Shown here: positions 8,962 through 59,505 of the stretch, one piece after another
Position numbering within the stretch: the stretch's first letter is position 1
Layout: each line of letters begins with the position of its first letter
Origin: Gracilariopsis chorda
Lineage: Eukaryota; Rhodophyta; Florideophyceae; Gracilariales; Gracilariaceae
Assembly: GCA_003194525.1 (NCBI GenBank)
Contig: NBIV01000097.1
Coordinates: forward strand, 1 to 64,000
Direction: 5' to 3'
Length of the DNA stretch: 64,000 nt
The notes under the pieces: generated by a model
The model's database searches: none
What the model was told of the DNA's origin: nothing
The model's input: the letters and a program-made list of their open reading frames with translations, nothing else
Made by a program: the position numbers and the translations under genes

Positions 8962-9219
8962 TTGCTAGAAACGCGTTACGGCTTTTTGAGGGGTGAGTGC
9001 GCACCCTTTTCTTGTTGCACGACGGCGACTTGCAGAGCTTCCCGAGAGAAAGGACAGGGCGGGCGGTGCTGCCCGTGCCTGAAGGACCGGTATGAGAACG
9101 ATGCCAGTTCCGTAACGCCGCCCACTTCGTCGCGTGTACTACCGGCTCAGCAGCGCGGATCAGCACGACAGTGCACGAAATGCAAACCGTCAACAGTGGT
9201 GAGAAAGGGTCCGCAGAGG

Positions 9220-9627
9220 ATGTCGTCACTTCTGGCAAGGTACAGACAGCGGTTACTACGACTTACCAATGAGCAACGCTCGAGACACGGACGCGGCCCG
9301 GTTTACTTGCACGGTTTGTTGAATGAAGCGGCGGTTCGACATAACGCTGATCTGGCGTTTAAGCAGATTCGATTGAGTCATGTCGGAAATGACGGCGCTC
9401 GGTTGGGGTCTAGAATTCGACGCGTCGGGTATACGTTTGCGTGGGCGGCGGAGAACTTGGCTCGGGGTCAGAAGAATGCTGCTCATGCTGTTCGGAGCTG
9501 GATGTTGAGTGATGGACATAGGAAGAACTTGCTCAATCCTAAGGCGACGCACATTGGACTGCACGTTGGACGCGGAAGAAATGGGCAGCTCTATTGGATT
9601 CAGGTGTTTGGACGGCCGGTAAGGTAA
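9220..9627 (+). CDS. CAP (SCP/PR-1-like) domain protein
   Basis: From the first in-frame ATG the frame encodes 135 aa that are almost entirely one CAP domain of the bacterial/plant YkwD-PR-1 type. The N-terminal helix carries LTNEQRSRHG. LLNEAAVRHNADLA and LSHVGNDG follow (with the conserved His), then AENLARG, the signature AVRSWMLSDGHRKNLL and a C-terminal strand IQVFG. CAP proteins are usually secreted and bind sterols or lipids or act in defence. No signal peptide is visible. The frame is open upstream to 8962 without an ATG, so a 5' exon may be missing from this model. The stop sits inside GGTAAGGTAAG, which resembles a splice donor, so a 3' exon is also possible. Confidence 0.78.
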   Translation: MSSLLARYRQRLLRLTNEQRSRHGRGPVYLHGLLNEAAVRHNADLAFKQIRLSHVGNDGARLGSRIRRVGYTFAWAAENLARGQKNAAHAVRSWMLSDGHRKNLLNPKATHIGLHVGRGRNGQLYWIQVFGRPVR

Positions 9628-18401: not shown

Positions 18402-18748
18402 TAAACTGGTCTCCTGACCTAGAACATAGTTGACACTCGTGTCCGAGTTCACGTGACGTTTCGTGAAGTCAGGTCATTGTTCGAGATCGGAGCTCGTCTG
18501 GCACGGTTAGAGTCAGTGAGCTGAAGTTTGGAACCGTCGCTATGCAGATGGTGAAATCAGAGGAGTCGACAGCCCTGGACTTACTGTTCGCTAAGTTCTT
18601 TTTTGTTTCCTGAAGCTCGTATTTGTTGTTCTCTTATCAGAAGGTAGTATCGTTATCAGTTTTGTTGGATTGTATCGCAGTCGATAGATAAGTTTCGTTT
18701 TGAACTATCTCATTGTTGGTCTGGAACTCCAGAAGGAGTTTGGCCAAG

Positions 18749-31590: not shown

Positions 31591-31779
31591 GAGAAAGACG
31601 CTAGTCGTCTTTCTCGGTAGTTAGAGTCCTAACATGCTCGCATGAATGCGGCATTGTAAGCAGACATCACACCATCCTCGGGGATGGTGAGAAGGCAGGA
31701 CGCTTTCTCACCATCCCCGAGGATGGTGAGATGGTCCACTCCATATCCTTCTTCCTCACCGTCTCACAAGGACGGTGAG
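31591..31779. repeat. Cluster of hairpins upstream of the Harbinger transposase
   Basis: Three nested or serial stems. GAGAAAGACG/CGTCTTTCTC with a 5-base loop spans 31591-31615. A perfect 24-bp inverted repeat has arms 31670-31693 and 31705-31728, an 11-base loop, and arms that are themselves near-palindromic around CACCATCC...GGATGGTG. CTCACCGTC/GACGGTGAG spans 31755-31779. The last two share the CTCACC/GGTGAG core. They lie about 80-260 bases before the transposase ATG. Confidence 0.85.
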
Positions 31780-31854
31780 CGAAGCTTTATCCTCACAGCT
31801 TTGGAAGCGTACCCACGTTGTGGACAGTGGACTGCATCATCATGTGCGATCTTC

Positions 31855-33087
31855 ATGGCGTCTCTATCAAAGAAGCAGTTGTTATTAGGACTTTTACAAG
31901 TTTTTGAGGACTTAGACGATACTTTGCAATACATTACAGCCATCAATGGCCTCCAAAACATGGTCCTTGCAATTGCAGATACAGATAGCAACAAACGAGG
32001 TTCTAACATTCACCGCAAATGGACTCACAGCCGCAATGCCGAACATTGGTTTACATCGTACGCTCTGCAGCCTAGTTTCATTGCTTGTGGCGCGTGGAAA
32101 GCTTTGTTCCGAGTGGCTCCTACCGTGTTTGAAGAGCTGCGTCTACAGTTATCAGCCGATCTTACAAAAATCGTGACCAACTACCGCGCTCCTATTCCTC
32201 GCAACCTGCAAATTGCATCGTTTCTCATGTACGTCGGGGGTACAACATCCGACACAGTAGCAGCACAGCTTGTAATTGGTAGAAACTCGGTCAAAAGAGA
32301 CGTTAAATGCGTTAGTCGTGCCATTATCAAGCACATGAATCACAAAGTATGCCTACCACGAAGCGAATTGGAAATTGCAAACGTTATGAAAGGCTTTCAA
32401 GAGATAAGAGGACTACGGTACTGCATTGGTGCCGTTGATGGAACACATATTCCGTGGTTGATGTGCCCTGAAGAGCAGTACTACGAGTACCGTAACTATA
32501 CGGCATTCCCAAGTATTGTGCTTTTTGCCGTTGTGGGTGCCAAAAGACGCTTTTTGTTTACAGATATCGGTCGTCCAGGAGTGTATGGGGATTCCACAAT
32601 CTTTCAAAGTTGCACCATCAAAAAACAACTAGATGAAGGGACATGGTTAGGTATAGACATTCTGGATCTTGATATTTGTGGTATGCCGGTTAGACAGTAC
32701 CTTATTGGTCACTGTGCTTTTCGTTTGGATGTGAGTATGATGAAGAGCTCTAGCAAGGCAGATATTTCCGCCAACCCAGTTCTGAAGGTATGGGATTCGA
32801 TTGCCTCACAAACCCGAAAGCCAATTTAGTGAGCTTTTGGCATGTTAAAGCACAGGTGTTCAGTTTTGAAGACAGACTTTCGTCTGCATCATGAAGATGA
32901 CATAGTGTTCGTGGCATCTGCTTGTGTTATACTTCACAATATATGTATGGAGTACGAAGACGATGATGATGTATATCTACCTCAAGACGAAGATGGTGAT
33001 CCCAATGAGTTCACCGCGGGAATCACTAGAGGAAAGAAACAAAGGGACTCACTGCCGTATTTTTTTATGCAAAAGCTAGCAGAGTAG
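31855..33087 (+). pseudogene. PIF/Harbinger transposase (DDE), two in-frame stops
   Basis: DDE_Tnp_4-type nuclease. From the ATG at 31855 the protein shows a helical N-terminal part with a helix-turn-helix-like GGTTSDTVAAQLVIGRNSVKR. Then come YCIGAVDGTHIPW (Asp 1), NYTAFPSIVLFAVVGAKRRF, TDIGRPGVYGDSTIF (Asp 2) and the C-terminal AFGMLKHRCSVLK...ACVILHNICMEYEDD. At 32827-32832 two adjacent stops, TAG TGA, stand directly before AFGMLK, exactly where the family has the catalytic Glu and its neighbour. The frame is otherwise open to 33087. So the third catalytic residue is lost and the protein truncated. With its partner gene it would recognise terminal repeats and cut and paste the element. Confidence 0.88.
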
Positions 33088-35591: not shown

Positions 35592-35954
35592 TTAACGGCG
35601 GTCATCATCATCGCAATCATCACCCCAGCACTTCTTCTTTCCGCCATACTTCTTCTTCGCGCCATAGAACTTCCTCTTCGGGCTGTACGGCTTGTAATAA
35701 TACGGGCGGGGGTAGTACTTGCGCTTCGGCTTCCAGTACCTCGGGCGAGATCTCCAATACCAGTCATCATCCCAGTCATCATCCCAGTCGTCGTCCCAGT
35801 CGCGCACCGCGCCCTCCAACTCCAATCCCATTCCCTTTCCATTCGAGTCCTCCAAATTGGGCTTGGCGGCAGCCGTCTCAATGGGAATCGGTTTGCTGGT
35901 CGCCGTGTACAGCAGCACCGTGAATGCCAGTGCAATCAGGGCAGAGCACTTCAT
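35592..35954 (-). CDS. Small secreted Asp/Trp- and Lys/Tyr/Pro-rich protein (family member 1)
   Basis: 120 aa. Signal peptide MKCSALIALAFTVLLYTATS, then mature N-terminus KPIPIE. An acidic middle contains AVRDW followed by three DDDW units. A basic aromatic segment (RPRYWKPKRKYYPRPYYYKP) and GAKKKYGGKKK follow, with two Cys in CWGDDC and the C-terminus DDDDRR. A TATA box (36105-36112) lies about 150 bases upstream. Four related loci lie on the same strand up to 48.6 kb. They share signal peptide, P-x-P at the mature start, the RxW(D/E) acidic box, W/Y-K-P stretches and (except member 5) the DDxxRR end. The alternation of strong acid and base suggests an extracellular matrix, ion-binding or coacervating protein; this is inference. 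No known family recognised. Confidence 0.75.
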   Translation of the reverse strand: MKCSALIALAFTVLLYTATSKPIPIETAAAKPNLEDSNGKGMGLELEGAVRDWDDDWDDDWDDDWYWRSRPRYWKPKRKYYPRPYYYKPYSPKRKFYGAKKKYGGKKKCWGDDCDDDDRR

Positions 35955-36104
35955 TGTTATGATGATTGTTCTTGAAACGGGTGTGTAGTCGTTGATAGAT
36001 TGATAGCGGAGATTGGGTAGAAGCCTTGAGTCTTCTGGATGTGGAAGACCGGGTGGTTGGGGTGGTGAGGAGAACTTTTGCACCGGAGTTGTAGTTCGCA
36101 CCGC

Positions 36105-36112
36105 CTTTTATA
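36105..36112 (-). promoter_or_regulatory. TATA box of family member 1
   Basis: TATAAAAG on the minus strand, about 150 bases before the ATG at 35954. The same octamer precedes members 2 and 3. Confidence 0.6.
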
Positions 36113-38498
36113 GACGCCGGCAACCTCCGCGCTCTCCGTGCTTGTCTTCAGAGTCGAGGATGGAACAAAGATTTCGGTAAGATAAGGAAACGACTTGTTC
36201 GTTCATCAAACTTTCTCAGACACATCGCCATGGCGTCATTGTCATCCTCTGGGAGAGGTGCTGTAAACCGTACTACTTGGTATCTCTTTCTTAACAAAGA
36301 AGTTATCAACTTTAATGATGTTCTCCCAAATGGAATCTTCGTGCCTTCGGTTCGTTGTGGTATGCCACCACCACGTCATTCAACCTATTCATACCACATG
36401 CACTCCAGCAAGGGCACCGTCACGTAGGTAGCATCCAAATCCATCTCCTAAGCGAACAAGCGATTCATATCACATGTGAGATATGAGAAGGAATACAACC
36501 GTAATTGATGGATTCCTTCCAACTATCAATGTGTGCCTCACAACTCCAACACGACAACTTCTTTGCGCGTAAATCAACACTGCACGACAACTGGCACGAA
36601 AAAAGAATCAGAAGAGTGCCTAGGGAGCGCGTACTACATCCGGTGGACACTCAAAGTCTTCACACAAAGTGGCTTGAGATGACAGCGTAATCAGTCAGAG
36701 AAGGCATTTTGCGCATATCGATGATACTTTCTTGTAGAGCCACATTGCTGGACACCTCGAAAATAAAACTTCAAATCGTTCTTCATCTATACTGCCAACA
36801 ATCCACTCCGGCACGCTTCACATGTCCGTATAACGAACTAGAACGTCCATCTGCAACCAAGGCGCATATGCATTTACATCTTGAAATGCTTTGATGGTAC
36901 TTTTTAACTTTGCACCTAAATTCGGTCAGCACCCAAGCTTACTCTTCCTCCCATATGCCAAAGAAGAAAAACAGGAAGAAGAAGACGTCTGTATGGGGAT
37001 CCTGTCGCAAACCCGCCTTTTGAATCACTTTGATTGCACTATTCCACAGCCGTACGTTCTTGATGGCTTCTTCTTCAAGATTAAACCCAGAAAGTATTTC
37101 TGGAACGATCTTACAGCTTGTAGATGGTACACCTTCCCGAATAAACCCCATCAAATCTGCTCCGAACGTCGAATAGAAAAAATTGTACAGCGTGGCCAAA
37201 CTAGTAGATCGGCAAAACCCTGCTCCATGAGTTCAGGTTAATGGAGTAAGTTGGGATGTAAGAAACACGAACAGTTTACATCTTCTCTGAAACGTTTGGT
37301 TCTTATTCACCCGTGCCAAAATCTTGGCAACCGACGGAGTATTTGAAATAGTACTTGATGCTGATCTTGTAGAGAAAAGGAGGAGTATCATCTGAACATG
37401 AACATAGAGTTTTGAAGGCCTCCTTGACTCGCAAGTTGGCGTAATAATTGTCATGGCGGAAAGTCCCTTCAGGGGTTTGTTGGGAATAGGTTTGACCCCA
37501 AGTTGTCGTAGAAGTACACGAATAGTTGAGGCTCTGTAAACAGCTAACAGCAAATTAAAGTCGATTGGCTGAGGGAAGTGAGTTGGTCTGATCAAGCGAA
37601 AACAAACGGGAAAAGAGACCAGGTAGACACAACCAGCCTTTTGGATGCTTTCGTAGCATCATTGTTGCAATGAGATATCCAATTAGCTTCTAGCTAGTGT
37701 TTGGTATATGGGCAAGCCCAAAAGGGGCCCAGAGTATCTTGGTTTGATTGTTTGGACAAGTTCTCTTGCAGAACAGATTACAGAGGCACACAAGGTTTCC
37801 TAGAGCTTAGACGTCACCATGGAAGAAAGCGTCAGACCTCACTTCGACGAAAGGAGAAAATGTGCAGTCCGTCGTCATAATGCATTCTGCGGCAAGTGAA
37901 ACTTGATAAGTTTGCATACGATTTCGAGGAGAAAGTCTGACCTTTACCCCAGCAGGGAGAAAACGTGGACAAATGGAAGTGTCTCTTGTCCTCATCATTT
38001 CTGCTAATGGCCTAGACAAGGCGGATAGGATCTTCACTTACAAGTTCACATACTTGTAGTTGGGGATAAGAGTTCTTGAGCCATGACTAGGGACAGGCGA
38101 GGCATATTTTTCATCTGCTTTTTGGTTTGGGCGCTATATATTCGATTACGAGCACTGGGGTTGATCTTTGCAAAAAGAACAGTCTCGGATTTGTCTAGCT
38201 TTCCTGAAAAGATTCGTGTATCCTTAATTGCTAAAGAGTTACGTCACAGTGGGCAGAACTCAGCAAATATTCTCATAAACAGTTACATTCGGTGCTCGAC
38301 CAATAAAGGAGCTGAGAGAAAGAATAGAGAAAGCTTCAAAGAAATTGAAGCCATCCCGTTTCACTAATTGTTATATTGTTTAGACCCGCTGATCTGCAAA
38401 AACTGAGAGCACGTTTCCTTAAGATCTAGTTCGGGACTGTCATGACCTTCTTAACCATTACTACGAAAATTTCTGTTGAGTATTCACTGGTAGCGAAA
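36113..38498. other. No convincing gene
   Basis: About 2.4 kb of AT-rich DNA with many short frames and no motif. It separates family members 1 and 2. Confidence 0.5.
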
Positions 38499-39225
38499 TC
38501 ACCAAGGCTTTGTGTTTGAACAATAGGATAGTTTGAAATAGAACCAACCGTGATAGTACGGATTGTAGTACCAGAAGCCATGACGGTGATCAAGGAATTC
38601 GGATCTTTTTCTATAAATCAACTTGCAGGTTTGAGTAGCCTTGGCATTATTATTCGAGTTTCCGCCGTCCGTATCGCCGTCAGTTTCTTTCATATCGTCC
38701 TCATTATCCTCCTCGTCAATCCCATTTTGCTGATCGTCATCATTATCTCTTTCCTTCAGGTCATCATCATCTATTTCTGGTTTCATCTCATAGTCTTTGC
38801 CTCCTTTTTGCCCATGCTGCTCATTATCGTCATGGTCATCATCTTTGTCGCATCAGCTTCTTATTTACCTTCCAGAGCCTCATTTTCATTTTCTTTTTTA
38901 TCATATTGCTCTTCTTCGTCGTCATCTTTATCTTCATCTTCCCCATCATCTCTGATTTCATTTATGTACTGGATCTTGCCAAACTCAGTACTGATATCAT
39001 CACTCTCTTCCATGGCATGAGGGCGGTCGTCGGCCTCATCAGAAACATCAGCAGCTGAATCCCAGGATCGAACAACGGCATGGTGTTCTTTCAAGTGTGA
39101 ATGTGATTCACTTGCTGCATTCTGGTTCAATTCAATTTCGCCGAAACTCTGTAAGGGACAGGCGCAGCCGTACACAAGGAAGAGATTTGAAGTAAAGCCA
39201 ATAAAATTAAGCAGCCAGCCTTCAT
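38499..39225 (-). pseudogene. Family member 2, frameshifted
   Basis: The ATG at 39225 opens a good signal peptide, MKAGCLILLALLQISSLCTA, followed by APVPY, but that frame stops after 32 codons. A shifted frame continues in register with the family: HAVVRSWDSAADVSDEADD, then a long acidic Asp/Glu/Lys stretch ending at a TAA near 38861. A further shift gives another Asp-rich stretch (EIDDDDLKERDNDDDQQ) and an aromatic end, HGFWYYNPYYHGWFYFK, to 38499. Two frame breaks therefore split it. Introns could explain them only if they were about 30 bases long, which is unlikely. The TATA box at 39320-39327 is kept. Confidence 0.62.
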
Positions 39226-39319
39226 GTCGATGGTAATGGGAAGGAGTTGGAGAAATACTTCTTAGAAGGTTTGTGGTTATGCTTCTGCACTGATTGGGCA
39301 AAGATATTTTGAAGGGTCC

Positions 39320-39327
39320 CTTTTATA
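39320..39327 (-). promoter_or_regulatory. TATA box of family member 2
   Basis: TATAAAAG on the minus strand, about 95 bases before the ATG at 39225. Confidence 0.55.
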
Positions 39328-41038
39328 CATTTGAGAGTGTTCCCCGGCTTAGGAAAGACACCTTTCCCAACCTCTCCTTGTCAGCAGAGTTCTTTGACGC
39401 CAGCAATCTATGGAGTTGATGTCATCATACTTCTTTTCAGTATGTGATTTACTGCTTAACAAGATGGCATTCAAATTGTGACACAGAAGACAGCCTAAAA
39501 GCCAAGTCACGCCTGATCACCGTGATCGGCGCGTAGCTTTCATGTTCACAGACAGTAGCTAGTTTGTAGCGTAGCCATAGAAATCTCTAGACCATTACAA
39601 GATCTGTATAAAATGGGCGTCAGCCGACCTTCCCCTCCATGTGGAGAAGGTCAGACTTCATTCACCATCACTACGTTACACAAATACTAAGGGTCTCGTT
39701 GGTAGTCTACTTGATATTGAACACGAAGTTATTTGAAAACTTGAAAAAGCTTGTCTCCATTCATGGAATTACTCCTGGAAGAATACAGCAATGACGGGCT
39801 TCTGGTTCGTTACTTTTGAAGCATATGAAGGTAAGAGTTCAGCTCCATTATTGTTGGAAGTCATAGTGATCAACATTGCTCTCAGTACTAATATAATTGC
39901 CAGACGTCAGTACACGGAGTATGCCAGTCGGCACCATGACTAATGAAATGTCTTAACGTTACTTCAAGGGTAGAAATCTTCTTCAATAGTCGTCACAGCT
40001 AAGACGCTGGCCCCATTTCTTGAAGTGATATCGCACTTCTTCCGATCAAGCTGTCTTCTGTCCTCCATACCTGTTGCTTCGAAATCGTTTTACATGCAGC
40101 CCTTAGAACACAATATCATATCGATTCCTGAAGGGAATATGCAACCCTTATGGACGACTAGTATGAACTTTACATGCATGTAGCGGCTAAAGAGAGTGAG
40201 ATCAAATCTTCATGGCTTTCAATTTCTTCCTTTTCTTGAATGATACGTTCCAAGAAGACCAGAATAGAACAAAAATTCGAAAGGCTTGCGCGCTACATGA
40301 TGATCATAACTTCAGCTCCAAGCTGGATGACATGCGCGGCAGGAAGGATAGTCTCATACCTTTTTGAGGATCAGACATCCATGGGTTCTCTTCTTTGCCC
40401 AGGATTTACTCCATATAGGTGATCACGAGTGCTGTCTCGTTGAGTCGAACTCTGTGAAAGCTTCATACAGATAGTATGAAGGGGACCAGATACTCTGGAG
40501 TATGCTTCATTTTTAATTATCTCAATTCAAAACGCTCCAAGGACTAATCGTAGCACTGGACATCCCGCGACTGCAAAATTGCTTTCTCCGCTGTCACCTC
40601 ACATGGAATGTCAGTAGCCCGTACTTGTTCGCACCTAGCCGAATTCGCAAAATATGGGATGTCAGTGACTCATGAAAAGAACCTAGGAGCGAAAGCATAC
40701 CCCAGAACAAGGGTAAAGCAAGTCATAGATAATCCTTCATCTTTAAGGATAAGGGCAAAGGGCTACCACCTTCCCATTCGCCAACTGTTGTCTAAAGATG
40801 GCGAGTTGGGAAACGGCATGTACTTTTAGCCCACATCACGCTCTTCGCAGTAGCATGGATACAATTGTGCTAGATTAGTGAAGAGAGCACAACCAGCTTC
40901 GATCGAGACCGAATACGAACAAGATCGTACTTCAATTATCGTTTATTAAAAGGTTCAAGAATTCTGAAGCATCCGGTGTAGAAGATGCTAACACATTGAA
41001 TTCGCTACTCGTTGATGTTACACTCTTTTGCAGAATGA
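39328..41038. other. No convincing gene; plus-strand TATA-like site
   Basis: No coding frame of note. TATAAAATG on the plus strand at about 39607 resembles a TATA box but leads into no recognisable gene. Confidence 0.45.
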
Positions 41039-41707
41039 TCAACGACGATCATCATCGTGTTCGTACTTTCCCTTACCTACCTTTGGCCTCCAAATCTTCG
41101 GTCTTGGCCTCCAAATCTTCGGTCTTGGCCTCCAGATTGGTTTGGGCTTCCAGATCAGCTTGGGTTTCCAGATCGGCTTGGGTTTCCAGATCGGCTTGGG
41201 TTTCCAGATCGGCTTGGGCTTCCAGATTGGTTTGGGTTTCCAGATTGGTTTGGGTTTCCAGATTGGTTTGGGCTTCCAGATTGGTTTCGGCTTCCAGATT
41301 GGTTTCGGCTTCCAGATTGGTTTCGGCTTCCAGATTGGTTTCGGCTTCCAGATTGGTTTCGGCTTCCAGATTGGTTTCGGCTTCCAGATTGGTTTCGGCT
41401 TCCAGATTGGTTTCGGCTTCCAGATGGGTTTAGGCTTCCAGACTTTAGGTTTCCAGACCGGCCGCTTGGGCCTCCAAGGCTTTGGGGATACCTGCTTGCG
41501 TCTTGGGATCCTGTACTTCTCTCCATCATCATCGCCATCATCATCGTACTCCCATCCGCGAACAACTCCGGTTACAGTGACATCGTAAGTTCCCTGATGC
41601 GTATTTTGAGCGAACTCAGCCACATTCTCAGTTTCTGCGATAGGTATCGGAAGAGACACGGAGCAGCAAAGCAATGCAGCCAACAAAACAATTGATGCGC
41701 CTTTCAT
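41039..41707 (-). CDS. Secreted PIWKPK-repeat protein (family member 3)
   Basis: 222 aa. Signal peptide MKGASIVLLAALLCCSVS, mature start LPIPIAE, then VTGVVRGWEYDDDGDDDGEK (the family acidic box) and KPWRPKRPVWKPKVWKPK. About 16 tandem hexapeptides PIWKPK follow, then variants PIWRPRPKIWRPRP, and the end EHDDDRR. The repeat domain has about one Trp, two Lys and two Pro per six residues and would be an extended, polyproline-like, strongly cationic rod with aromatic side chains. TATA box at 41784-41791. Similarity to member 1 in the signal peptide, acidic box and tail fixes the start. The role is unknown: wall or matrix cross-linking, polyanion (sulfated polysaccharide) binding, or defence are possible. 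Confidence 0.82.
   Translation of the reverse strand: MKGASIVLLAALLCCSVSLPIPIAETENVAEFAQNTHQGTYDVTVTGVVRGWEYDDDGDDDGEKYRIPRRKQVSPKPWRPKRPVWKPKVWKPKPIWKPKPIWKPKPIWKPKPIWKPKPIWKPKPIWKPKPIWKPKPIWKPKPIWKPKPIWKPKPIWKPKPIWKPKPIWKPKPIWKPKPIWKPKLIWKPKPIWRPRPKIWRPRPKIWRPKVGKGKYEHDDDRR
41130..41440. repeat. 18-bp coding minisatellite
   Basis: Tandem 18-bp units encoding PIWKPK on the minus strand. Going along the plus strand, units form homogeneous blocks: three with CAGATCGGCTTGGGTTT, then about four with CAGATTGGTTTGGG, then about eight with CAGATTGGTTTCGGCTT. The silent differences between blocks show stepwise local duplication. Confidence 0.92.
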
Positions 41708-41783
41708 GTTGAGTGGCACCCTCAGCGGATTCCAGTGCTTCGAGGATGCAGCAAGTTGGAGCCTCGTTGATGAAGGAATGAAG

Positions 41784-41791
41784 CTTTTATA
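41784..41791 (-). promoter_or_regulatory. TATA box of family member 3
   Basis: TATAAAAG on the minus strand, about 77 bases before the ATG at 41707. Confidence 0.6.
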
Positions 41792-41899
41792 CGGTAGAGT
41801 TGAGTATTGAACATCATTTTGGAGCGAAGTCAATCTCAAAAAGACAAAATCACATGGAACTGGTTGTGTACATGTATCTGATGAACATGGAGCCACGTT

Positions 41900-44689
41900 C
41901 CGCGGTTAACAGATACACAAAGGTAACGCACAGCATGCGTCGTAACGGTTACCCTTGTCCAGCGATACCCTGAGTTTCGTTACAAACTATATGACACAGA
42001 GGCCTTTCATTGCAGGACGGACATGTCTCATCCTGAATTTGTAGCGGAGGAGAAAAGGTAGTATGTGGAGATTCAAACCTTTTGGGCTGAAATCGCACCA
42101 GCACCTGTTATTCAAAGGCACCCAAGATATGTGATAGAGCTGCACCGCAGGATACGAGCAGTGTCACGAATGTTGCGTTGTTCGAAGGGTAGTAAACTGT
42201 CTTACCGATGTCTGCTACAGGTTGGTCTCATGACAGATTCGCGAAACATACAGGAGTCCCGAAACAGGATGGGCAGTCTTTCTAATGTGAGCAGTATTCC
42301 GTTTCAGCTTGTGCGTCACCAGATGGCCAACAGGATTGGAACGGCCCCCAGCAACTGTGAACAGAGGTAAAGGTTACCGTTGTATGTAACAGGTACGGTT
42401 GTTCGCACTTCAAAGAGTTAGCTTTTTGCTGGGTAGCGCTGCCAGCAGTGTATTCCAACCGTATGAATTTAATCTTAATTTTAAAAAAACGTCAATCGAA
42501 AAGCGACCATCCAAAAAGAGTGGCAGATGCCTCTCGAAACGAGCACCGGCAGATACTTCATAGTTCAAGTCCGACATCAGAATTAAGCTTCAAGAAAGAA
42601 GCTTTGGTACTGATCATGAACACAAGCTCTCAAAAGCAAACGGTCTATGAGGTGTGGAAAGCTGGGATGCAGAACGTGGCGCGCTTTCTTCATTCTTCAA
42701 TTCATCAAGCTGCATGAATTAAACTAGTGAATGACCCACAAACTTGGGTTCTCAAACATGCGTCGTGTACTTCTTCTCAGTTTTGTCCTTTTCCCGAGGA
42801 GATGATATGCGGAATGAAATCGTGAGGAACACCGTCAGAGAGATTATCATCATGTTTGCAAATTAGGTGAGGCAGCTTGTGAATTTGAAACGTCCAGGAC
42901 AAGAAGCGATTTCATGGCGCCTCCTAGTGCAGATCAAAAAGATCTTGCGCATGGCATTCTTGTTGCTTGCCAGTCAGGGAATGTTGCGTGTGAATACAGT
43001 CATCTGGATTGGAGGTGGAGTAACCCCGGGTTTGTACGTGTAGATGTGAAGTGAGCTGATGCTGTTCGCCTTTGGATTCCCTCCAAATCTACACCCCTTG
43101 GTCTCGAATTGCTCTTTGCTGTTTGGTGTTGTACGATGAAGCTGTGAACCCAGACAGTGATTTTAGGCATCAGCGTCACCTTGAGCGCAACCCAAAGTCA
43201 AAACAGAAGTTGCTCGTAAGAGGAGTAGCTGTATCTTCGTGCGTAGCAATGTTGCTCATGAAAACTATGCGAGAAGGAGCGCAGGGCAACAACACGAAAC
43301 ACTAGCTAAGTTAGAGAAGTGTACCCCTAGCTAGACTACCCTTGTACGTATAGTTACGACCGGAGCACAGAGGACATCCTGCCACTCTTGCCGTGACAGC
43401 GGGACCATCCAATAATTTGCAGATCAAACACTTGTCTATCGGACCGCTGACCTCATATGAGGTCAAAACAATCAACTTAACCTTTAATTTTAGTTATTTT
43501 GATCGGATGTTTTCGCCTTTTGTAGTCCGTATAAGTTATGCAACCTGTTTTTGTATAGGAAAAATTCTAAGCCTCTGTTGTTTATGCTCGGTGAGAAGCA
43601 AAAACATAAGACAACCAGATGGTTTAATAGAGAGGTCCTTGAAAAATATGTCGAATTTACTACAGAGCTTCAGAAAACAGCCTTTTTTGATATCAAAAAC
43701 GTACTTTTGATTCAAAAACACCCGTTTCTGACGCGTGTATGAAAGGTTCAAAACCTTGAAAAAATAATCATTTGGCAACATTACGTCCGGGCGGATAGAC
43801 ACTAGCGTTTGCTAGCGAATTGGATGTCGAGAAACGCACGCATCGTTGCTCAGATATGTTATAACTGTGACTCTACCCACTACAAACTACCAGTTGCCAT
43901 AACCTTGCCACGAAAGGTTAATCAGAGAGTTTCTATCTCTTTCTTTTTGTATATTACAGATCATACTGTCGTTTTCACAGACTTGAGGTTCCTAGCCACT
44001 TGGTATTGAAACCGGACGGTTCGTGATAGCTTTGAATCTGTACTTGTAGCGAATTCTTACATGTGAGCAGCAAGAAAGTGGTTGCGCTTCAGAGAAACTC
44101 GTACTTGGTGCAATGGAATTCTGTTACTGACGTTTGTTCCAACTACAAGAGTGTGAATATTCGGAATCCCCAGTGTCATGCAAGAAGATGTGTAATGTAA
44201 TTCGTTCTCCTGTCAACCGAAATGGGACTAAGTTGACCTGGTGCCGGTGTTGCCCTTTGTTTTTTCTTCGTCACCATGCGTCATCGAAGGACAAATATGT
44301 GATGCTTTATGTACCAAAGGTTAGCAATCTACCGTTAATACTTAACGTTTGACTGCCGCTAAGAATCTGGGTCCCGTTCCCGGAACAACCGTCATCGTTG
44401 TTCTTGTGATTGATAGTTTGAGTGATATTGTGAGGAGCGACTAGGGAGGATACCCTTCTTCTCATTTATTCCCCATTCGTGGGCCACTCCTATAATAATG
44501 TCGATTGCGACCAAAGCAGATGCGCTTTTCGTTTTCACAACGTAGAGACGAAAGGAACTTCTTATCTTCGAAGAACGTTGGTAAAGCCACCGTGAACCTA
44601 GCGACTACCGTGGCGATTCTACTCCACGCATGGGCCTACCTTGTTTCGAAGCAATCGCGAAATAGGTGACCAGTGTACCGAAGGACGAT
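41900..44689. other. No convincing gene
   Basis: About 2.8 kb with only short frames. It contains two perfect palindromes, at 43448-43465 and 43684-43699, but no coding or RNA signal I can support. Confidence 0.45.
43448..43465. repeat. Perfect 18-bp palindrome
   Basis: TGACCTCATATGAGGTCA. A dimeric protein-binding site is possible. A second perfect palindrome, TTTTTGATATCAAAAA, lies at 43684-43699. Confidence 0.6.
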
Positions 44690-44890
44690 ACCACTACACC
44701 CTTAGAGAAAAGGCTACAATACACTAGCAAAAAGTTGCGCCGGAAGAGCAAGCCAAATGGATAGGCGATTGGGTCTACGAACGGAATTTTGCCGTCGAAT
44801 AGATGATTAGCCTTCTACATATGGAGAGTTAATACCGTTGCCTCGGAATTAGTGGCACGGGCCCGTAAACACACACATACACACTTAGAG
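44690..44890 (+). mobile_element. LINE-type 3' end fragment, copy 1
   Basis: About 200 bp aligning with 45120-45300. It contains GCCGTCGAATAGAT(A/G)ATTAG, ATACCGTTGCCT and TTGGAATTAG-like sequence, and ends in a CA-rich tail (ACACACACATACACAC). The GGAATTAG...CACG segment recurs at the ends of copies 3 and 4, tying it to the LINE remnant at 46-47 kb. Confidence 0.5.
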
Positions 44891-45119
44891 TTGCAGTTTG
44901 GAGCAAAACCGCTGGAAGAAAGGCGGCCGCTTCAGCAAATGCGGACTAGCGACAGGCCCTACGTGTAGGGCTACACACATATGAAGGGGTGTCAAAGTTG
45001 TCGTAGCCCATTTGGAATCACGATGCTAAATCGCTTTGCGCTGGATACCGTTGTGGTGAGGCACCACTGCAAGCTAGCGAGTCCCGCTCAGGGCACATGC
45101 AGTTCCGCCCGTCGAAATG

Positions 45120-45300
45120 TGCCGACCTTCCGAAAAGGCTATAAAACACTATAAAGTTACGCCGGATGAGGAAGCCAAATGGAGATGCGATTGGGTCTAT
45201 TAGGGGAATGTAGCCGTCGAATAGATAATTAGCATTCTACTTGTAGAAAGCGAATACCGTTGCCTTGGAATTAGGCACACGTGCCCGTAACCACACACAT
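45120..45300 (+). mobile_element. LINE-type 3' end fragment, copy 2
   Basis: Diverged repeat of copy 1, starting at GAAAAGGCTATAAAACAC and ending CTTGGAATTAGGCACACG with a short CA-rich tail. Confidence 0.5.
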
Positions 45301-45599
45301 ATGAAGATACGTGACCCATCAATTCTTTCATTCCGTCTTTGCTTGACGTGTAGGCTGATCCAAGGCTGGTCGGAAATGAAAAGGTCAGATAGGCTACTGA
45401 CGATGCTGATAAAGAGCATATACTGCTGAACATGACCAAGTATGTTTTTTCTTCTTTCTATTCAAATGCGCGTCCATGATTTGTGCTTGAATGATGTCAA
45501 TTCTGGGAGAAGCCGGAGCGATCTGAGCAATCCACTGTTGCCGAAGAAAAGCGCTACGCGTGTTGTTGATCTACCCAATGTATTGACCACCAGAGATGC

Positions 45600-45990
45600 C
45601 GCAAGAGGGAAAGCATAACAAGAGCAGTGCAACAACGTATGCGAAATGCCTACTGAAGATGAAGAAGATTTATTCTCTGACTGGTCGATGCCCTTCTTTT
45701 ACTGGGGTTTCTTCTTTTCTTGGTCCTTTTATACTGCTCATCATGCTTAATCTATCTGATGCTCGAGACCAATTAGAACCCTCTTCCCTTACAAACTCTC
45801 AATTGTTCCTTAACGCTTTTCCAATTACGACCTTTCCTAACGATACTCGTTGCAAGCAGTACGCACATGACCAGAGAAGTTGCTGGTTTATCTGGAGAGA
45901 GAGGGATTCTTCTTAGATCAGCCCCCACCGCAGTCGCAGTCTTGGAATTAGGGACACGCTCATATAAATACAAACACAACAAGAAACACA
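45600..45990 (+). mobile_element. LINE 3' end fragment, copy 3
   Basis: The last part (45862-45980) aligns with 46995-47110: CATGACCAGAGAAG...TGCTGGTTTATCTGGAGAGAGAGG, then CTTGGAATTAGGGACACG and a tail of AAATACAAACACAAC. It encodes the same C-terminal end (FIWRERDSS against YLERERGSS). Confidence 0.6.
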
Positions 45991-46119
45991 TTCAAGGAAT
46001 CAAAGCCTGGAAAACAGAACAAGGAGAAAGAAAGGCGTTTAGTGCAGAGTAAGATCGATCTGGTGCATTCTAATCAAGTACGAGAGCGAAGACAAAGAGT
46101 TCGTTCACATAGTGTTTGA

Positions 46120-47099
46120 ATGTTGTTCTCACTAGTGCGCCGCAGTGATCGTACCTTTTCGGTCAATAAATCCAGCATAAAGCGACCTTCAGGATCTTTC
46201 GCATTCGTCACAATTCTCTTGCTCTACTACCCCATATTGCACTGCAGAGCATGGCATATGCTTACGCCAGATATACTGATCCAGTATGATGATGAATTTT
46301 GCATGTGCTACAGACGGGAGAGGGATAACGCCATATCTGACGAGGACGGCCACGTACTTCAAGTGCGAATACTAGATGTTGGAACGGCAGGCGGGGGAGA
46401 TTATTCAATCTGGTGGAAAGGAAGAATCGAACCTCAGGAATAGTCCCAGCTGGGATAGGGTCTGCTCTTACATTGCAGAGCTAGCAGCGTTCCGGCGAGC
46501 TCTATCCGAAGTTGCTGTGAAAGTTTGCTGTGGCTGGAGAGGGACAATCAGATTTGCTACGGACTCGAAAAGCCTCGTACACGGCTTGCAACCACAAAAC
46601 GAAGCCGCCGACGAACTTGCAAAGAAAAGCCTTGGTCTCCCCATTGCGCACCAACTCCTAAAAGAGATCGAATTTCTGGAAGTGAAACAGAGAACTCGCG
46701 TCCGTCTTGCTACCGCAGAGCCAGTAAGCCAAGTCCCAGAGTTACTATCAAATGTTTTGACTCAAAGGAGGACGCACACTGCCCTGTCGCAAATATTTAC
46801 CGGCCACGTGCCGGCGCTACATCCAGTCTCTACGTTTCTACACAACAGGAAATGTTTCTGCCCGCTCGGATGTGGGCTCAACATACTTAATAGTGTAGAC
46901 TATTTCGTTCTTAGATGCGGCCGAAGAGCCGCATCCCGGTGTCGAGAGATCCCACCTCTCCGAGAGAGGCAGGGTTCTGACGCTGAATCAATAGTAAGGA
47001 CATGGCCAGAGAACCTGTTGGTTTATCTAGAGAGGGAGAGGGGTTCTTCTCAATGTAACCTCTACCGTAGTCTTGGACTTAGAGACACGAGCTCATATA

Positions 47100-47100
<1 letters not shown>
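46120..47100 (+). pseudogene. LINE (non-LTR retrotransposon) RNase H and C-terminal end, decayed
   Basis: Across two frames a remnant of an RNase H-bearing LINE is visible. RIRFATDSKSLVHGL-type sequence (near 46550) carries the catalytic Asp segment, and NEAADELAKKSLG (near 46600) is the typical end of RNase H. A C-terminal Cys-rich stretch, KCFCPLGCGLNILNSVDYFVLRCG, follows near 46855, resembling the zinc-binding tail of I-type and related LINEs. The RT itself is missing, as expected for 5' truncation. The copy ends in CGAGCTCATATAAG and a long (CA)n run. Confidence 0.65.

Positions 47101-47101
<1 letters not shown>

Positions 47102-47174
<73 letters not shown>
47102..47174. repeat. (CA)n microsatellite, LINE tail
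   Basis: About 36 uninterrupted CA units directly at the LINE 3' end. The other copies also end CA-rich, so the tail is probably part of the element's retrotransposition signal, expanded here. Confidence 0.9.
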
Positions 47175-47175
<1 letters not shown>

Positions 47176-47300
47176 ACATATGCTTACTGCCAGATTCATG
47201 AACATCGCCTCAACGCAGAGTCGAGAACTGCGTTACAAACAGGGCAGTACTCACCAAGTAAGTTGTTCACGCAGTTGAACTACTTTCTCGCACAGAAGAC

Positions 47301-47560
47301 TCAACGACGGTTAGCATCGTCATATCTATTTCTACTACCTCTTCCGCTACGAATCCAAGCTTTCACCACCCAAATCCTTTGACGGATCCTTTCTTTTGAA
47401 TCCCAGAACTTTGGCTTCCACACCTCTGGCTTCGGCGTCCAAGCTTGAGGCTTCGGCTGGATCGGTTTATACTTTCTTCTTCTTCTTCTTTATTGTGAGC
47501 GTGTACGTCTATTACTCGTACATCGGGAGGTTTAGTACAAACCTCCAATACCTATAACGC
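47301..47560 (-). pseudogene. Family member 4, decayed
   Basis: The C-terminal 62 codons are recognisable: KYKPIQPKPQAWTPKPEVWK, PKFWDSKERIRQR and the family end NRYDDANRR before TGA at 47301. Upstream a frame break near 47490 separates this from DVRVIDVHAHNKEEEEE, which matches the VVRxW acidic box in position. No signal peptide could be found further up, and no TATAAAAG octamer is present. Confidence 0.6.
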
Positions 47561-48159
47561 TTTCTTTGTTATCGTAGCTACAAACTAAGATTTTCAGCCG
47601 TGTTAGGATCACTGAGCTACTTTGTGATTAAGCAAAGAAAGCATTAGATCTCAAAGGTACTCTCGTCTGCGTGAGCATTTCGTTACCGATGATCATCGCC
47701 TTTCATCCCTTGTTCCCTAAATTTCTACCTCTCCTTCTCCCTCTATATAGGTCATCGGCAAAGGGGCACACCACGACAAGGCGCTCTGCACGTACTACGT
47801 TGTGCAACCAGAAGATCATGATTGCGTTCTCTTCTTCCAATCCTCATATCGTCGGCGACATTGACAAAAAGAGAATCAGCCTGCAACTGTTCAAGGTCCA
47901 TCAACCCTATCCTAAACCTTCCAGGAAAAACCCTGGAAAAACTTCGATCGCATCATGTCTCCGTTGGAGCTCATTCAGGATGGAGAAAAGTCAGGAAAAC
48001 GGTGGTCGAGTCGTCTTCTGATGAAGAATTCCAAGCCTACTGCTGTCGCGCAGATAGTCGGGGGCCTTTTTGCGACATACCTCCCAGGTCCGCAACGGTG
48101 ATCGACAACCCAAAGCGGCAGGCCGTGGATCCCTGGTCGAGTTTAGCGACGTCTTAAGT

Positions 48160-48265
48160 CCGGAGAGGCGGTCGGTTCGCCGATCGCCTATGCGAGTTTA
48201 ACGATTTCCCGAGTCTGGGTCGGTGATCGGTGCGCCGATCGCCGAGGTGAGTTTAACGGCATCCT
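48160..48265. repeat. Imperfect 52-bp tandem repeat
   Basis: Two units containing CGCCGATCGCC, GAGTTTAACG and a TCTGGGTCGGT/CCTGGGTCGAA end. A weaker third unit lies upstream near 48130-48165. They overlap the 3' end of family member 5. Confidence 0.6.
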
Positions 48266-48583
48266 GGGTCGAATCGGTTTATACTCCCGGAAGTTCCGTT
48301 GATGTTTCCGGTTCCTTAGCCTGGGGCTGTAAGCTTCTTTCAGGATTGGTCTCCTGGTTTTAGACTCTAAAGCCAGTATTGGCTTTCGAAGAGGATCCTT
48401 GTAGTCACCATCATATTCCCATCTGCGGGCAATCTTGGCGACATCGACGTGGGGGGCAGCTTCATCAGCTATTGAGGAAGACTCGGCCACGCTCCCGGGT
48501 TTTACCTTGGGACCAGGAAAGGGAGCTGCAAACGCCAAGCACAGGAAAACAGCTACGAGCCAAACAACTGGTGCTTTCTTCAT
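48188..48583 (-). CDS. Small secreted protein (family member 5)
   Basis: 131 aa. Signal peptide MKKAPVVWLVAVFLCLAFA, mature start APFPGPKVKPG, then DVAKIARRWEYDGDYKD, the family acidic box, and a basic second half (RKHQRNFREYKPIRPR). The C-terminus is SPTQTREIVKLA rather than DDxxRR. This part lies in two imperfect repeats of about 52 bp on the plus strand (GTTCGCCGATCGCC...GAGTTTAACG), so the original end was probably replaced through repeat expansion or a frame change. The upstream element TTTAAAGGG (48707-48715) takes the place of the TATA box. Expected to be secreted; function unknown. Confidence 0.68.
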   Translation of the reverse strand: MKKAPVVWLVAVFLCLAFAAPFPGPKVKPGSVAESSSIADEAAPHVDVAKIARRWEYDGDYKDPLRKPILALESKTRRPILKEAYSPRLRNRKHQRNFREYKPIRPRMPLNSPRRSAHRSPTQTREIVKLA

Positions 48584-49776: not shown

Positions 49777-51657
49777 TCAGCTTCGCGAGCGGCGACGAAC
49801 CCTTTCTCTCAGTGTAGAATACATAGTATCTTTCACTCGTTGGAAGACCGCCTTTTCCTCAGAAGTTTGGGCCTCCGCCATCATATTTTGAGCATCACGA
49901 AGTCCATTAAGCAGCGTGATGATGTATCGATCCTGCGCCTCTTCCGCTTCCGTCACGATTTTCTCGATCAACTTATCCTCAATTTCTCGGAACTTGCCAG
50001 AGCTAGGCGCTGATCGCAGCAAATTCCACATCAGGCCTTCACTTCCCAAACCGCCACTTTTCGCAATGGCGTCAAACATCGCTCTATCCTTCTCCTCACG
50101 CTCCTTCATGCGAATCTCCTCTGACTTAGTCAATGGAACCGTAAAGCCTGCTTGGTCGCCGGAAACGTTTCGTATTTCCTCTGGTATATCACCGCCAATA
50201 ATCTTGAGAAGCTCGTCACGCTCTCTGTCGCCCAGCATAGCAGCTTTCGCTCTCTTTGCAGTGGGACTTGGGTGCAAATCGCCCATTTCTTCATCACCCT
50301 CCAAGTCGACGCTAGCAATGCTTCGTTTCGCAGAGGCCGCCGCGGAAGTGGGCTTCGCAGCTGATTCGGCCTCTTCTCTCTGTGTCTCAGCTGCCTTCAG
50401 AGTAAGCGGTTCCAACTGCGGATAGTTCTCCAACAGACAGAATGCGTATGTGATATATTGCTTCGCCTGCGAAAAGTCAGCGAATGAACTGGTGTCGTCA
50501 TTCCCCCATTCCAGGTAGCTTCGCACCGCTGCCCGATACAACGATCGAAACTCTGCAAACTTTTGCTGCAGCGTTTCACCATCACGTTCGCACATGTAGC
50601 GTGGTGAAAGCCCTCGTATATCGCTCAGTCGCACACCATGGGCAACCGCTTTGATAGGAACAGGTCTGAATTTGCGGTTATTAAACAACGGAGCAACATG
50701 TTCAACCCATGGTTTCTCCTTCAATTGCGGGTCCAGAAGCTGGTTCAAGTAAGGTGCGAGGGATTTGTCTGCGAGAGCGTGAAGCAATCTACAATACTCC
50801 CCATCTTCAAATTCGGGGGCTTCTTCAGATTCTTCCGAATTCTCGTCGTGAGTTTCGTCGGCAATGCGGTCTGTTGGAATGGAAGGTGTTTGCTCCACTT
50901 GTTGAGGTTCGGCAACAGGCACGTTAAAAGCGTCCTGTTCTTGCTGTTGTTTGTTGGCCATTTGTGCGAGTACGTTTTCCAAAGGTGGCATCCCCGGAAC
51001 GACAAGTTCTCGTTCATCGTACATAGGAACGTCTCCGCTAATCCAATGAATTCGATCAGGGGCCCCTTTTCGTTTGTACGGACCCCTGGCGACAGTTTCC
51101 GGCAAACGACGCAAACGGTGGTGTTGTTCGTTTGCTAATGAGGGGTTCTTGATGTCAAATTCATCGGCACAATCGATGATTGTGGCGAGGCATAACTGAC
51201 GTTGCACCATTTTAGCGGCGATAATTTCGCGACCGACGGCGACGCGCACTTCAGACGGAGTCTTGACATTGAGTGTTTTGAGAGCGTGTCGCACGGAACG
51301 TTTGTTGAGAATTATGATTTGTAAAGCGTCTACAGCCTCGCGCATGGACGTTGGGAGATGGTTTTTTGCGATGTTTTCGAGGCGTTGAATGTCTTCTCTT
51401 GAGAGGAGTTCGTGCTGTTTGATTCCCTTTTCAGTGAGGTCGACGTAGGTTCTCATTAATGCGGCGTTGTTCTGAGGGGTGTCTCCTTTGTAGGTGAGGA
51501 AGAGACCATGCGGTTTGATGGGTACTGCCTTTGGTTGCGGGGGTGGGTTTGTTGCTGCTGTTGGGGATGGATTTGATTTGGGTGCGGTTGTGTTTGGCGG
51601 CGCGTCGGGTGGTTTGTTTACCGCCGGTTTGTTTGTATGTTCGGCTTTGTTTTCCAT
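49777..51657 (-). CDS. Unrecognised 626-aa protein, probably nuclear
   Basis: One uninterrupted frame. The ATG at 51657 is chosen because sequence upstream of it (to 51924) is Cys/Pro-rich and lacks similar composition; the longer reading would add 89 residues. The Pro/Asn/Lys N-terminus is disordered. A helical region with TYVDLTEKGIKQHELLSRED follows, a long acidic stretch (DETHDENSEESEEAPEFEDG), a helical middle (EYCRLLHALADKSLAPYLNQ), a second disordered part with the basic SPTAKRAKAA (nuclear-localisation-like), a charged coiled-coil-like C-terminus and the end RERVRRRSRS. No family recognised. GGTACC double sites lie upstream at 51974 and 52561. Confidence 0.75.
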   Translation of the reverse strand: MENKAEHTNKPAVNKPPDAPPNTTAPKSNPSPTAATNPPPQPKAVPIKPHGLFLTYKGDTPQNNAALMRTYVDLTEKGIKQHELLSREDIQRLENIAKNHLPTSMREAVDALQIIILNKRSVRHALKTLNVKTPSEVRVAVGREIIAAKMVQRQLCLATIIDCADEFDIKNPSLANEQHHRLRRLPETVARGPYKRKGAPDRIHWISGDVPMYDERELVVPGMPPLENVLAQMANKQQQEQDAFNVPVAEPQQVEQTPSIPTDRIADETHDENSEESEEAPEFEDGEYCRLLHALADKSLAPYLNQLLDPQLKEKPWVEHVAPLFNNRKFRPVPIKAVAHGVRLSDIRGLSPRYMCERDGETLQQKFAEFRSLYRAAVRSYLEWGNDDTSSFADFSQAKQYITYAFCLLENYPQLEPLTLKAAETQREEAESAAKPTSAAASAKRSIASVDLEGDEEMGDLHPSPTAKRAKAAMLGDRERDELLKIIGGDIPEEIRNVSGDQAGFTVPLTKSEEIRMKEREEKDRAMFDAIAKSGGLGSEGLMWNLLRSAPSSGKFREIEDKLIEKIVTEAEEAQDRYIITLLNGLRDAQNMMAEAQTSEEKAVFQRVKDTMYSTLRERVRRRSRS

Positions 51658-51973
51658 TGCTAACTTTTGGAGGAGTGGGTTCGAAGGAAGTGAAGATACA
51701 ACGCTTCGTCCCGCTCCGCAACTGGGGCGGTGCGCAACGGCCGAAATCGGGGGAGCAGCTTTGAAAAGCGGGGGGGGACAGAGAGCGCACGGAGGGGCAG
51801 AAAGGGCTGCTTTACCGTAGGGAGAGATGTGTACCGCAGCGGACAAACAAGTGTTGAAGAAGAAGGCAGTTGCGGATGTGCATTCGCATAATTGCACCGT
51901 CAAGGCATATGTCAAGCCGAGCAATGTGCTCGTTCGCAGGCGACGTGCGCGGCAGCAGCTAACGTTTCGGTGC

Positions 51974-58052: not shown

Positions 58053-58254
58053 CTTGAGAGACGGCGGAGCGCGTTTGGAAGATGGGGGCGGCGGGAAGTG
58101 TTAAAAGTTACGTCAGATGACAATGATGATGATGCGTTTGCGGGCGACGAGTACGGCACACGTGGCGCGGTGCTGGCCACGACGCGTGTTGGTTCTGGTA
58201 ATGCGCACAGTCGACAGGCGGCTGTGGCTGTGGCGGAGCTGGAGCGGCACAACG

Positions 58255-59505
58255 ATGACGGCTGCGAAAGGATGGCGAGTGCGAAGGCGAGCAGTGTGCA
58301 AGATCGCTTCTTCGCGACGCTTTCTGCTTGTTGCGGCCGTTGCAGGGACGCTGCTACTTCTTACGCTCCTCGGGAACGCGCGGGGACTTGGGCACCGTCG
58401 GCGACAACGACAGCAGCTGGCTTTGTTGGCGGGTCAAGCGGCGGTGTCGCACGCGCCGTTGCGTAGATCGCTCGTCGTTGTCACAGCCGTCAACTTTGCC
58501 TTTCGCCATTATGTGCTCAATCTTATCTGCTCGTTACAGCGCGTATCATCGCTGTCCGCGCTTAACGTGCTGGTCTTCTCGCTGGATGCGCGCGTGCATC
58601 GTTTTGTGAAGCGCCATGGATTACGATCGGTGCTACTTGCACAAGGCGCTGCTTCGGATGGCGAAGAAGAAGCTGTGTTTGGAAGTGCGCGATTTAACCT
58701 CTTGTCGAAACGAAAGTTACATGCTGTGAAACAAGTGCTTGATGTTGGAGTGGATGTGTTGTTTAGTGACGCTGATGTTGTGTGGTGTCGAGGTGGATTT
58801 GACGCCGTGTTGCAACTTGTCGCAGAGCGTGTGGGATATGCTGATATGTTCGTGCAGACCGCTTGGCCTAGAAGTGTGCTCAACTCGGGTTTTTACTACG
58901 TCGCTTCGAACAGCCGAACCCGCGCCTTGTTTGACGCTTTGTTACGCTTTCCGCAAAGCTCTGAAAACGATCAGGTCATCTTCAACCGCGTCTTGTGCGC
59001 ATCAAAATACGGCGGTCAATTGGTATTCGATAACAACGCCACAGCGGAACGTCTACCGTCCGGAAGAATTAAACCATCCGCCTGCAAATGGAATGGCGTG
59101 CGTGCCGAACTGCTAGACTCGCGCTTGTATCCGACTGGCGGTCAACTTTGGAGTGGGCGCAAATTGTTTCATTGGTCTAGAGATACCATTGTTCATATGT
59201 GTGATTCGGCTGCTGTGCGTATTTTGCACAACAACTGCATCCTCAGTTTCGGGAAGTTGGCTCGTTTTGTCGTCAAGGGCTTGTGGTATGTCCGCGGAGA
59301 TTATGCGCATTCACAGCTAGTCGCCCGGGAGGAGGAGGAGGACGCTGCGGACGGAGACGATTCATCACCTTATGCTGACCTCGCTACTTCTACGGGATTG
59401 CATGCCGTGTGTGGCCCGCCTGCCCTGCCTACCGATCTCATGAGGAAGCGCTGTGGACGCGCAAAGTGCGGCGACGATGCTCTTCTTCATCCGCACTCCA
59501 CATGA
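58255..59505 (+). CDS. GT77-like nucleotide-diphospho-sugar transferase
   Basis: 416 aa from the ATG at 58255, chosen because it leaves a short basic cytosolic tail before the membrane anchor RFLLVAAVAGTLLLLTLLGN (about 22-42). The frame is open back to an ATG at 58117. The luminal part matches the nucleotide-diphospho-sugar transferase family: SLVVVTAVNFAFRHYVLNLI, SKRKLHAVKQVLDVGVDVLF, the metal-binding DxD in FSDADVVW (near 172), NSGFYYVASN, ENDQVIFNRVL and the late His-Asn in RILHNNCIL. Relatives transfer arabinose, galactose or xylose to wall glycans and glycoproteins in the Golgi. The end is acidic (EEEEDAADGDDSS) with a few Cys. It converges with the GT14 gene 81 bases downstream. Confidence 0.85.
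   Translation: MTAAKGWRVRRRAVCKIASSRRFLLVAAVAGTLLLLTLLGNARGLGHRRRQRQQLALLAGQAAVSHAPLRRSLVVVTAVNFAFRHYVLNLICSLQRVSSLSALNVLVFSLDARVHRFVKRHGLRSVLLAQGAASDGEEEAVFGSARFNLLSKRKLHAVKQVLDVGVDVLFSDADVVWCRGGFDAVLQLVAERVGYADMFVQTAWPRSVLNSGFYYVASNSRTRALFDALLRFPQSSENDQVIFNRVLCASKYGGQLVFDNNATAERLPSGRIKPSACKWNGVRAELLDSRLYPTGGQLWSGRKLFHWSRDTIVHMCDSAAVRILHNNCILSFGKLARFVVKGLWYVRGDYAHSQLVAREEEEDAADGDDSSPYADLATSTGLHAVCGPPALPTDLMRKRCGRAKCGDDALLHPHST

Follow-up and report, generated by a model that had tools for sequence, protein, structure and literature searches.

The first 64,000 bases of contig NBIV01000097.1 of the red alga Gracilariopsis chorda (the window; the contig, C97, has 240,305 bases, and the genome 91.3 Mb in 1081 contigs) contain a cluster of four minus-strand genes, here called A, B, C and E/D, that encode one family of small, putatively secreted proteins. 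Genes A and C are open, B is frame-broken, and E/D is interrupted by a dispersed repeat. A preliminary description of this DNA had listed five such loci, two of them broken, as a lineage-specific secreted family. The frames were indeed found at 35.6, 38.5-39.2, 41.0, 47.3 and 48.2 kb and breaks were found in B and E/D, but five separate loci were ruled out since D and E are one gene with the repeat inserted, which leaves four. The lineage-specific character held up: so far as the sequences indicate, the family is restricted to the Gracilariaceae, with relatives found just in Gracilaria domingensis and in the protein P0001. The features of the cluster are as follows.

35592..35954, minus strand: gene A, an intact reading frame (ATG to stop) of 120 amino acids (aa)
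36105..36112, minus strand: TATAAAAG, 158 nt upstream of the start codon of A
38499..39225, minus strand: gene B, frame-broken as assembled
39320..39327, minus strand: TATAAAAG, 102 nt upstream of the start codon of B
41039..41707, minus strand: gene C, an intact reading frame (ATG to stop) of 222 aa
41127..41442, minus strand: tandem array with an 18-bp unit (17.6 copies) that encodes the IWKPKP repeat in C
41784..41791, minus strand: TATAAAAG, 84 nt upstream of the start codon of C
47301..47473, minus strand: 3' half of gene E/D, from YKPIQPKPQAW to YDDANRR and stop
47474..48272, minus strand: dispersed repeat of about 800 bp with a GAA-rich 3' end, inserted in gene E/D
48273..48583, minus strand: 5' half of gene E/D, from the start codon to YKPI, with Arg at 53 and RRWEYDGDYKD

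Shared anatomy of the encoded proteins

The members have a common layout, with the first 20 or so residues hydrophobic, followed by a pro-region that runs to an arginine, an Asp/Trp block, a block of Pro, aromatic residues, Lys and Arg, and a short acidic tail with RR. Hydropathy of the best nine N-terminal residues was 2.87-3.41, and an N-terminal helix was predicted. Secretion was judged from these two properties, so the secretory signals described earlier are putative signal peptides. The arginine was found at residue 51 in A, P0001 and P0002, at 50 in C and in a further family member on C123, at 53 in E and in its copy on C135, and at about 53 in B. All four genes contain P-x-P near the start (PIP in A and C, PVP in B, PFP in E) and the RxW(D/E) motif (RDWD in A, RSWD in B, RGWE in C, RRWE in E). 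The reported Asp runs and W/Y-K-P stretches were also present in the frames, as were DDxxRR-type ends in three of them (DDDDRR in A, DDDRR in C and DDANRR in D).

In gene A the hydrophobic N-terminus (approximately residues 1-20) is followed by a pro-region to VR at 51, the DWDDDWDDDWDDDW block, an aromatic/basic block, CWGDDC and the DDDDRR end. Two relatives of A were found at E≤1 among 503 candidates, namely P0001 (126 aa; E 3.7e-35; 64% identity in the local match and 65% in the full alignment) and P0002, the hypothetical protein FGB62_139g217 of G. domingensis (E 2.0e-9). Both resemble A throughout, with a hydrophobic start, Arg at 51, RDW, an Asp/Trp block, a Tyr/Pro/Lys/Arg block and DDDRR at or near the end. 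P0001 differs from A in having four residues beyond RR, and P0002 in being net acidic and in lacking the P-x-P and the Cys pair.

Gene C has the same order, with a pro-region to VR at 50, a GWEYDDDGDDD block, an array of IWKPKP-type units (18 counted) and the DDDRR end. No database relative of C was found at E≤1 among 737 candidates, and A and C were not returned by the protein database that did return E. Quick divergence by repeat expansion had been proposed for the family. A long expansion is present in C, but in C alone among the members read, and its units differ mostly synonymously. In the 18 units, chosen by peptide pattern, 25 of the 30 codon differences from the consensus were synonymous and 5 non-synonymous, where 10 of the 54 possible single changes of a unit are synonymous; 26 of the 31 base differences lay at third positions. 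The first 17 units are contiguous without a gap, and copies inherit changes; the synonymous bias is strong, though short of a formal test. In the genome search, the best non-self row of C, C9:444417 (E 5.1e-4, ahead of E at 0.0155 and the C135 copy at 0.0275), was dropped as a PEPELG-repeat frame. Three other rows (C102, C97:178855 and C156) were inspected and discarded because by eye they did not resemble the family, and the weak rows C7, C165 and C284 were left out of the reading.

Leave-one-out profiles, ranked against 2056 window frames and two added proteins, recovered A at 1.2e-8 (with P0001 also omitted), C at 4.9e-10 and the C123 piece at 4.3e-4, and E weakly at 0.059. The left-out A, C and E each ranked straight after the training members. 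A profile on the first 54 residues gave 6.1e-4 for A and 1.3e-3 for C, with E and C123 outside the best six rows; these scores are weaker, and the low-complexity acidic box therefore gives part of the family signal.

Gene B starts at 39225 with MKAGCLILLALLQISSLCTAAPVP and carries an AVVRSWD motif, a long D/E-rich stretch and an aromatic end. Its frame shifts twice in the assembly, and we infer that all three frame pieces form one gene; possible introns were considered by eye. With a profile that excluded B, its two N-terminal pieces scored 0.096 and 0.5 and ranked fourth and fifth among the window frames, directly after A, C and E. We count B as a member as much for its place, strand, TATA site and AVVRSWD motif as for the profile score. 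Overall, the resemblance within the family goes beyond chance, with E and the B pieces recovered weakly.

The TATAAAAG (TATA) sites upstream of the first three genes were present as reported. This sequence occurs eight times in the window against a shuffle mean of 1.32. When four starts were placed at random with the seven minus-strand copies fixed, at least three starts had a site 60-200 nt upstream in 2 of 200,000 placements. Another copy lies at 45726-45733 (minus strand), where no gene was assigned; the sequence that follows this copy was inspected by eye.

An alignment search of the protein database gave 28 rows at E≤1 from the 7994 candidates sharing most words; the input included the C123 row and the E frame with its repeat-derived end. 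P0001 to P0004 were counted as family, and those new beyond the relatives of A were E of G. chorda and BWQ96_07109. P0005, P0007 and P0008 were judged on reading to be unrelated proteins that contain an Asp/Trp run and were set aside, as were P0006 and P0009 to P0028 on E-value (0.04 or worse) and Pfam label. In agreement with the earlier statement that no known family is matched, none of the family proteins reached a curated cut-off in Pfam or NCBIfam, and the sequence search of PDB at E≤0.1 returned 0 rows. The rows below cut-off were UPF0227 (0.025, a B frame), NF040676 (0.0084, C) and TIGR03478 (0.093, P0002).

Gene E/D, its copies and the surrounding genes

D and E are the two halves of one gene, interrupted by the dispersed repeat. 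A 13-bp target duplication, AGTATAAACCGAT, lies at 48273-48285, the end of the 5' half, and at 47461-47473, the start of the 3' half; it occurs at no third place in the window (shuffle mean 0). The E frame runs into the first duplication in the same codon phase as the D frame runs out of the second. The repeat supplies the final 27 residues of the open E frame, and of the 20 places matched by E in the genome, 18 are other than E and its C135 copy, 17 of these starting at residue 90 or later. The database contains a protein identical to frame E, and its gene model runs into the transposed repeat. A CA dinucleotide array of 39 copies (47102-47178) lies immediately 3' of the D half.

A genome search with the repeat gave at least 44 matches including itself, with 40 of 145 candidates scored. 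Besides the self match, 10 were of at least 222 bp at 84-95% identity, 29 were at 65-70%, and four were short pieces. The copies end in a GAA-rich tail, and flanking duplications were visible by eye in three of the seven inspected (L046, L048 and L051).

Contig C135 carries a copy of the 5' half of E together with the repeat, at 93.7% identity over 1174 bp. The copy begins 66 nt before the ATG, extends as far as the GAA-rich tail and has AGTGATGGAGCA on both sides. It is probably a retroposed transcript of the 5' half, and so read it suggests that E was once transcribed. The 5' flank of the copy also resembles the tail of the repeat, which speaks against retroposition; the copy may have arisen by a more complex event, and its 5' end need not mark a start site. 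The repeat apparently brought a gene fragment to this contig.

The C123 member has one in-frame stop and ends in DDWDDDRRRRR. On C24 we observed a putatively secreted, Tyr/Pro/Arg-rich protein (L022:1495-2067; C24:37204-37773) that shares the family layout, has its arginine at 52 and ends in an SDSDSD tail. It scored between 6.9e-4 and 2.8 depending on the family profile, and 0.385 with P0002, and is possibly a distant paralogue. DDDRR followed by a stop was rejected as a genome-wide family marker: of its seven matches just A and C belong to the family, the reversed control gave three, and the other five end two sets of mutually similar frames that resemble repeated elements.

The left flank of the window is rich in transposons, with retroelement gag, DDE transposase and Pif1-type helicase pieces, matched in library scans as follows.

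1401-2330, minus strand: Pif1-type helicase piece
18713-20125, plus strand: retroelement gag
31684-32829, plus strand: DDE transposase

The same scans found a cullin, a bZIP protein and two glycosyltransferases among the neighbours on the right flank. The two glycosyltransferase genes adjoin each other at 58117-59505 (plus strand) and 59587-60807 (minus strand), and the pair matched Nucleotid_trans (1.1e-24) and Core-2/I-Branching (1.8e-27). A protein with a CAP/PR-1 domain is encoded at 8962-9627 on the plus strand (Pfam PF00188, E 1.1e-16). An open frame of 715 aa at 49777-51924 (minus strand) had no Pfam match at E≤0.1 and no plasmid match by tblastn. RuBisCO, used as a marker of the organism, likewise gave no match.

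Possible function

Our tentative reading, which stops a little short of probable, is that these are Gracilariaceae-restricted, secreted pre-pro-polyampholytes acting in the sulfated-galactan matrix or the cuticle. Of the two roles that the preliminary description put forward as possible, extracellular matrix and defence, a matrix role is favoured because the chain is putatively secreted, block-charged, aromatic and apparently disordered, in an agar-making alga. Further points in its favour are the block architecture and charge, the near-constant arginine, the leave-one-out recovery, the blocks kept in P0001 and P0002, the mostly synonymous variation in the C repeat, the high third-position G+C of A and the suggested past transcription of E. 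The AlphaFold model of A, with a mean predicted local distance difference test (pLDDT) score of 51.3 and the N-terminal helix as its only structure, fits disorder, though the model is poor. The family, with its four clustered genes and two further copies in the genome, would make small secreted pre-pro-proteins from which the signal is removed, perhaps followed by cleavage at Arg 50-53. The processed chains would then enter the extracellular matrix or cuticle, where blocks of opposite charge may associate with each other, the basic aromatic block may bind sulfated galactans and the Asp block calcium. Tyr and Trp could permit oxidative cross-linking, and the repeat number in C would set the length of its chain. 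According to the part of the source available to us, the cuticle of the red alga Iridaea is about 50% protein and 40% carbohydrate, and structural chemistry is described as poorly characterised for the cuticle of the related Chondrus (PMC5155586). A more specific and rather unlikely proposal makes the family proteins candidate structural proteins at the surface of red algae, in cuticle lamellae, adhesive or plugs. They would then be block polyampholytes that are released from a conserved pre-pro-precursor and undergo phase separation with sulfated galactans; repeat number would tune them, and they would have evolved independently of the matrix proteins of animals and diatoms.

Several observations weigh against the matrix reading. 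Net charge after the arginine is not conserved (+4 in A, +45 in C, 0 in P0001 and -5 in P0002), and strict charge-balanced assembly is therefore unsupported. The Cys pair common to A and P0001 is missing from C and P0002, and the C123 member has neither P-x-P nor RxW. G+C content at third codon positions was 0.71 in A against 0.47-0.58 in seven other window genes, and was high in A alone, the values for C (0.54, or 0.47 outside the repeat) and E (0.50) being ordinary. The AlphaFold model of A was built on four sequences, and so thin an alignment would also give a model of this kind. Since several copies are broken, the family is in part dispensable. Finally, the profile drew the glycine-zipper protein P0005 at 2.9e-4 through its Asp/Trp run, and Asp/Trp composition therefore arises outside the family.

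The layout of hydrophobic N-terminus, pro-region, acidic block and basic aromatic block would also suit precursors of cationic defence peptides, in which the pro-region and the Asp block silence a Trp/Tyr/Pro/Lys/Arg-rich peptide until its release at the surface, where it would disrupt microbes. The protein of C is strongly cationic (+45), and the copies are clustered, partly broken and changing, as are those of many defence families. However, A, C, P0001 and P0002 have all kept the acidic block, which together with the net charge of -5 in P0002 speaks against a simple cationic peptide. Inspection by eye showed no cleavage-type site common to the proteins where the acidic block gives way to the basic one, and the curated Pfam and NCBIfam models gave no match, no antimicrobial-peptide library having been searched. 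We consider a defence role unlikely.

A specialised matrix role, as a spore or holdfast adhesive or as a pit-plug protein between cells, appears quite unlikely. The Tyr/Lys-rich composition recalls mussel-foot-like adhesives and the diatom protein AC3362, but within the portion of the source that we could consult AC3362, chosen for its adhesive-like composition, turned out to be a wall protein (PMC4220933). Red-algal pit plugs are described as mainly glycoproteinaceous in the text accessible to us (PMC10536634). Plugs occur widely among complex red algae, whereas the only relatives found for the family are in the Gracilariaceae, and nothing points to one cell type or structure. It is likewise improbable that the family is decaying or nearly functionless, its resemblance partly compositional. 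In favour of this reading, B, E/D and the C123 member carry breaks, the C135 copy is incomplete, the left-out E score (0.059) and the N-terminal-only scores are weak, and C has no database relative at E≤1. Against it stand the intact gene A with its homologues (3.7e-35 and 2.0e-9), the mostly synonymous variation in the C repeat, the near-constant arginine position and the placement of the TATA sites. We retain the role in matrix or cuticle as the working interpretation.

Comparison with known systems

No paper naming this family turned up in literature searches, the G. chorda genome paper lying outside their reach. New here are the four genes, the pre-pro layout with its near-constant arginine, the relatives in a second genus, the repeat insertion, the probable retroposed copy, the mostly synonymous repeat variation and two intact genes that the database did not return. 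These two short genes, one with a homologue in the second genus, are concrete molecules for testing. They also show how such genes escape notice, as A and C were not returned by the protein database and the model of E there extends into the transposed repeat.

Trp/Pro-rich cationic antimicrobial peptides such as indolicidin resemble the Trp-Pro-Lys/Arg composition of the C repeat. As judged from the general description of such peptides, the Gracilariaceae chains are set apart in being much longer and in retaining the Asp block. Cingulins of diatoms have a W/Y composition. In the part of the source available, the cingulins of Thalassiosira pseudonana are wall proteins named as Y- and W-types, and they are like the present proteins in their signal peptide (putative here) and Lys clusters (PMC9650480). 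The cingulin clusters are given there as K(X)nK with Ser/Gly spacers (PMC9650480), whereas by eye the Lys residues of A and C are spaced by Pro or Pro-aromatic. Unlike this family, cingulins belong to a silica wall, and the two are likened by description only. AC3362 and the mussel-foot-type proteins, again likened by description only and as far as the consulted text goes, are similar in being secreted (here putatively), Tyr-/Lys-rich and of low complexity (PMC4220933). The Asp/Trp block, the Arg boundary and the DDDRR end are features of the Gracilariaceae family that set it apart from these proteins.

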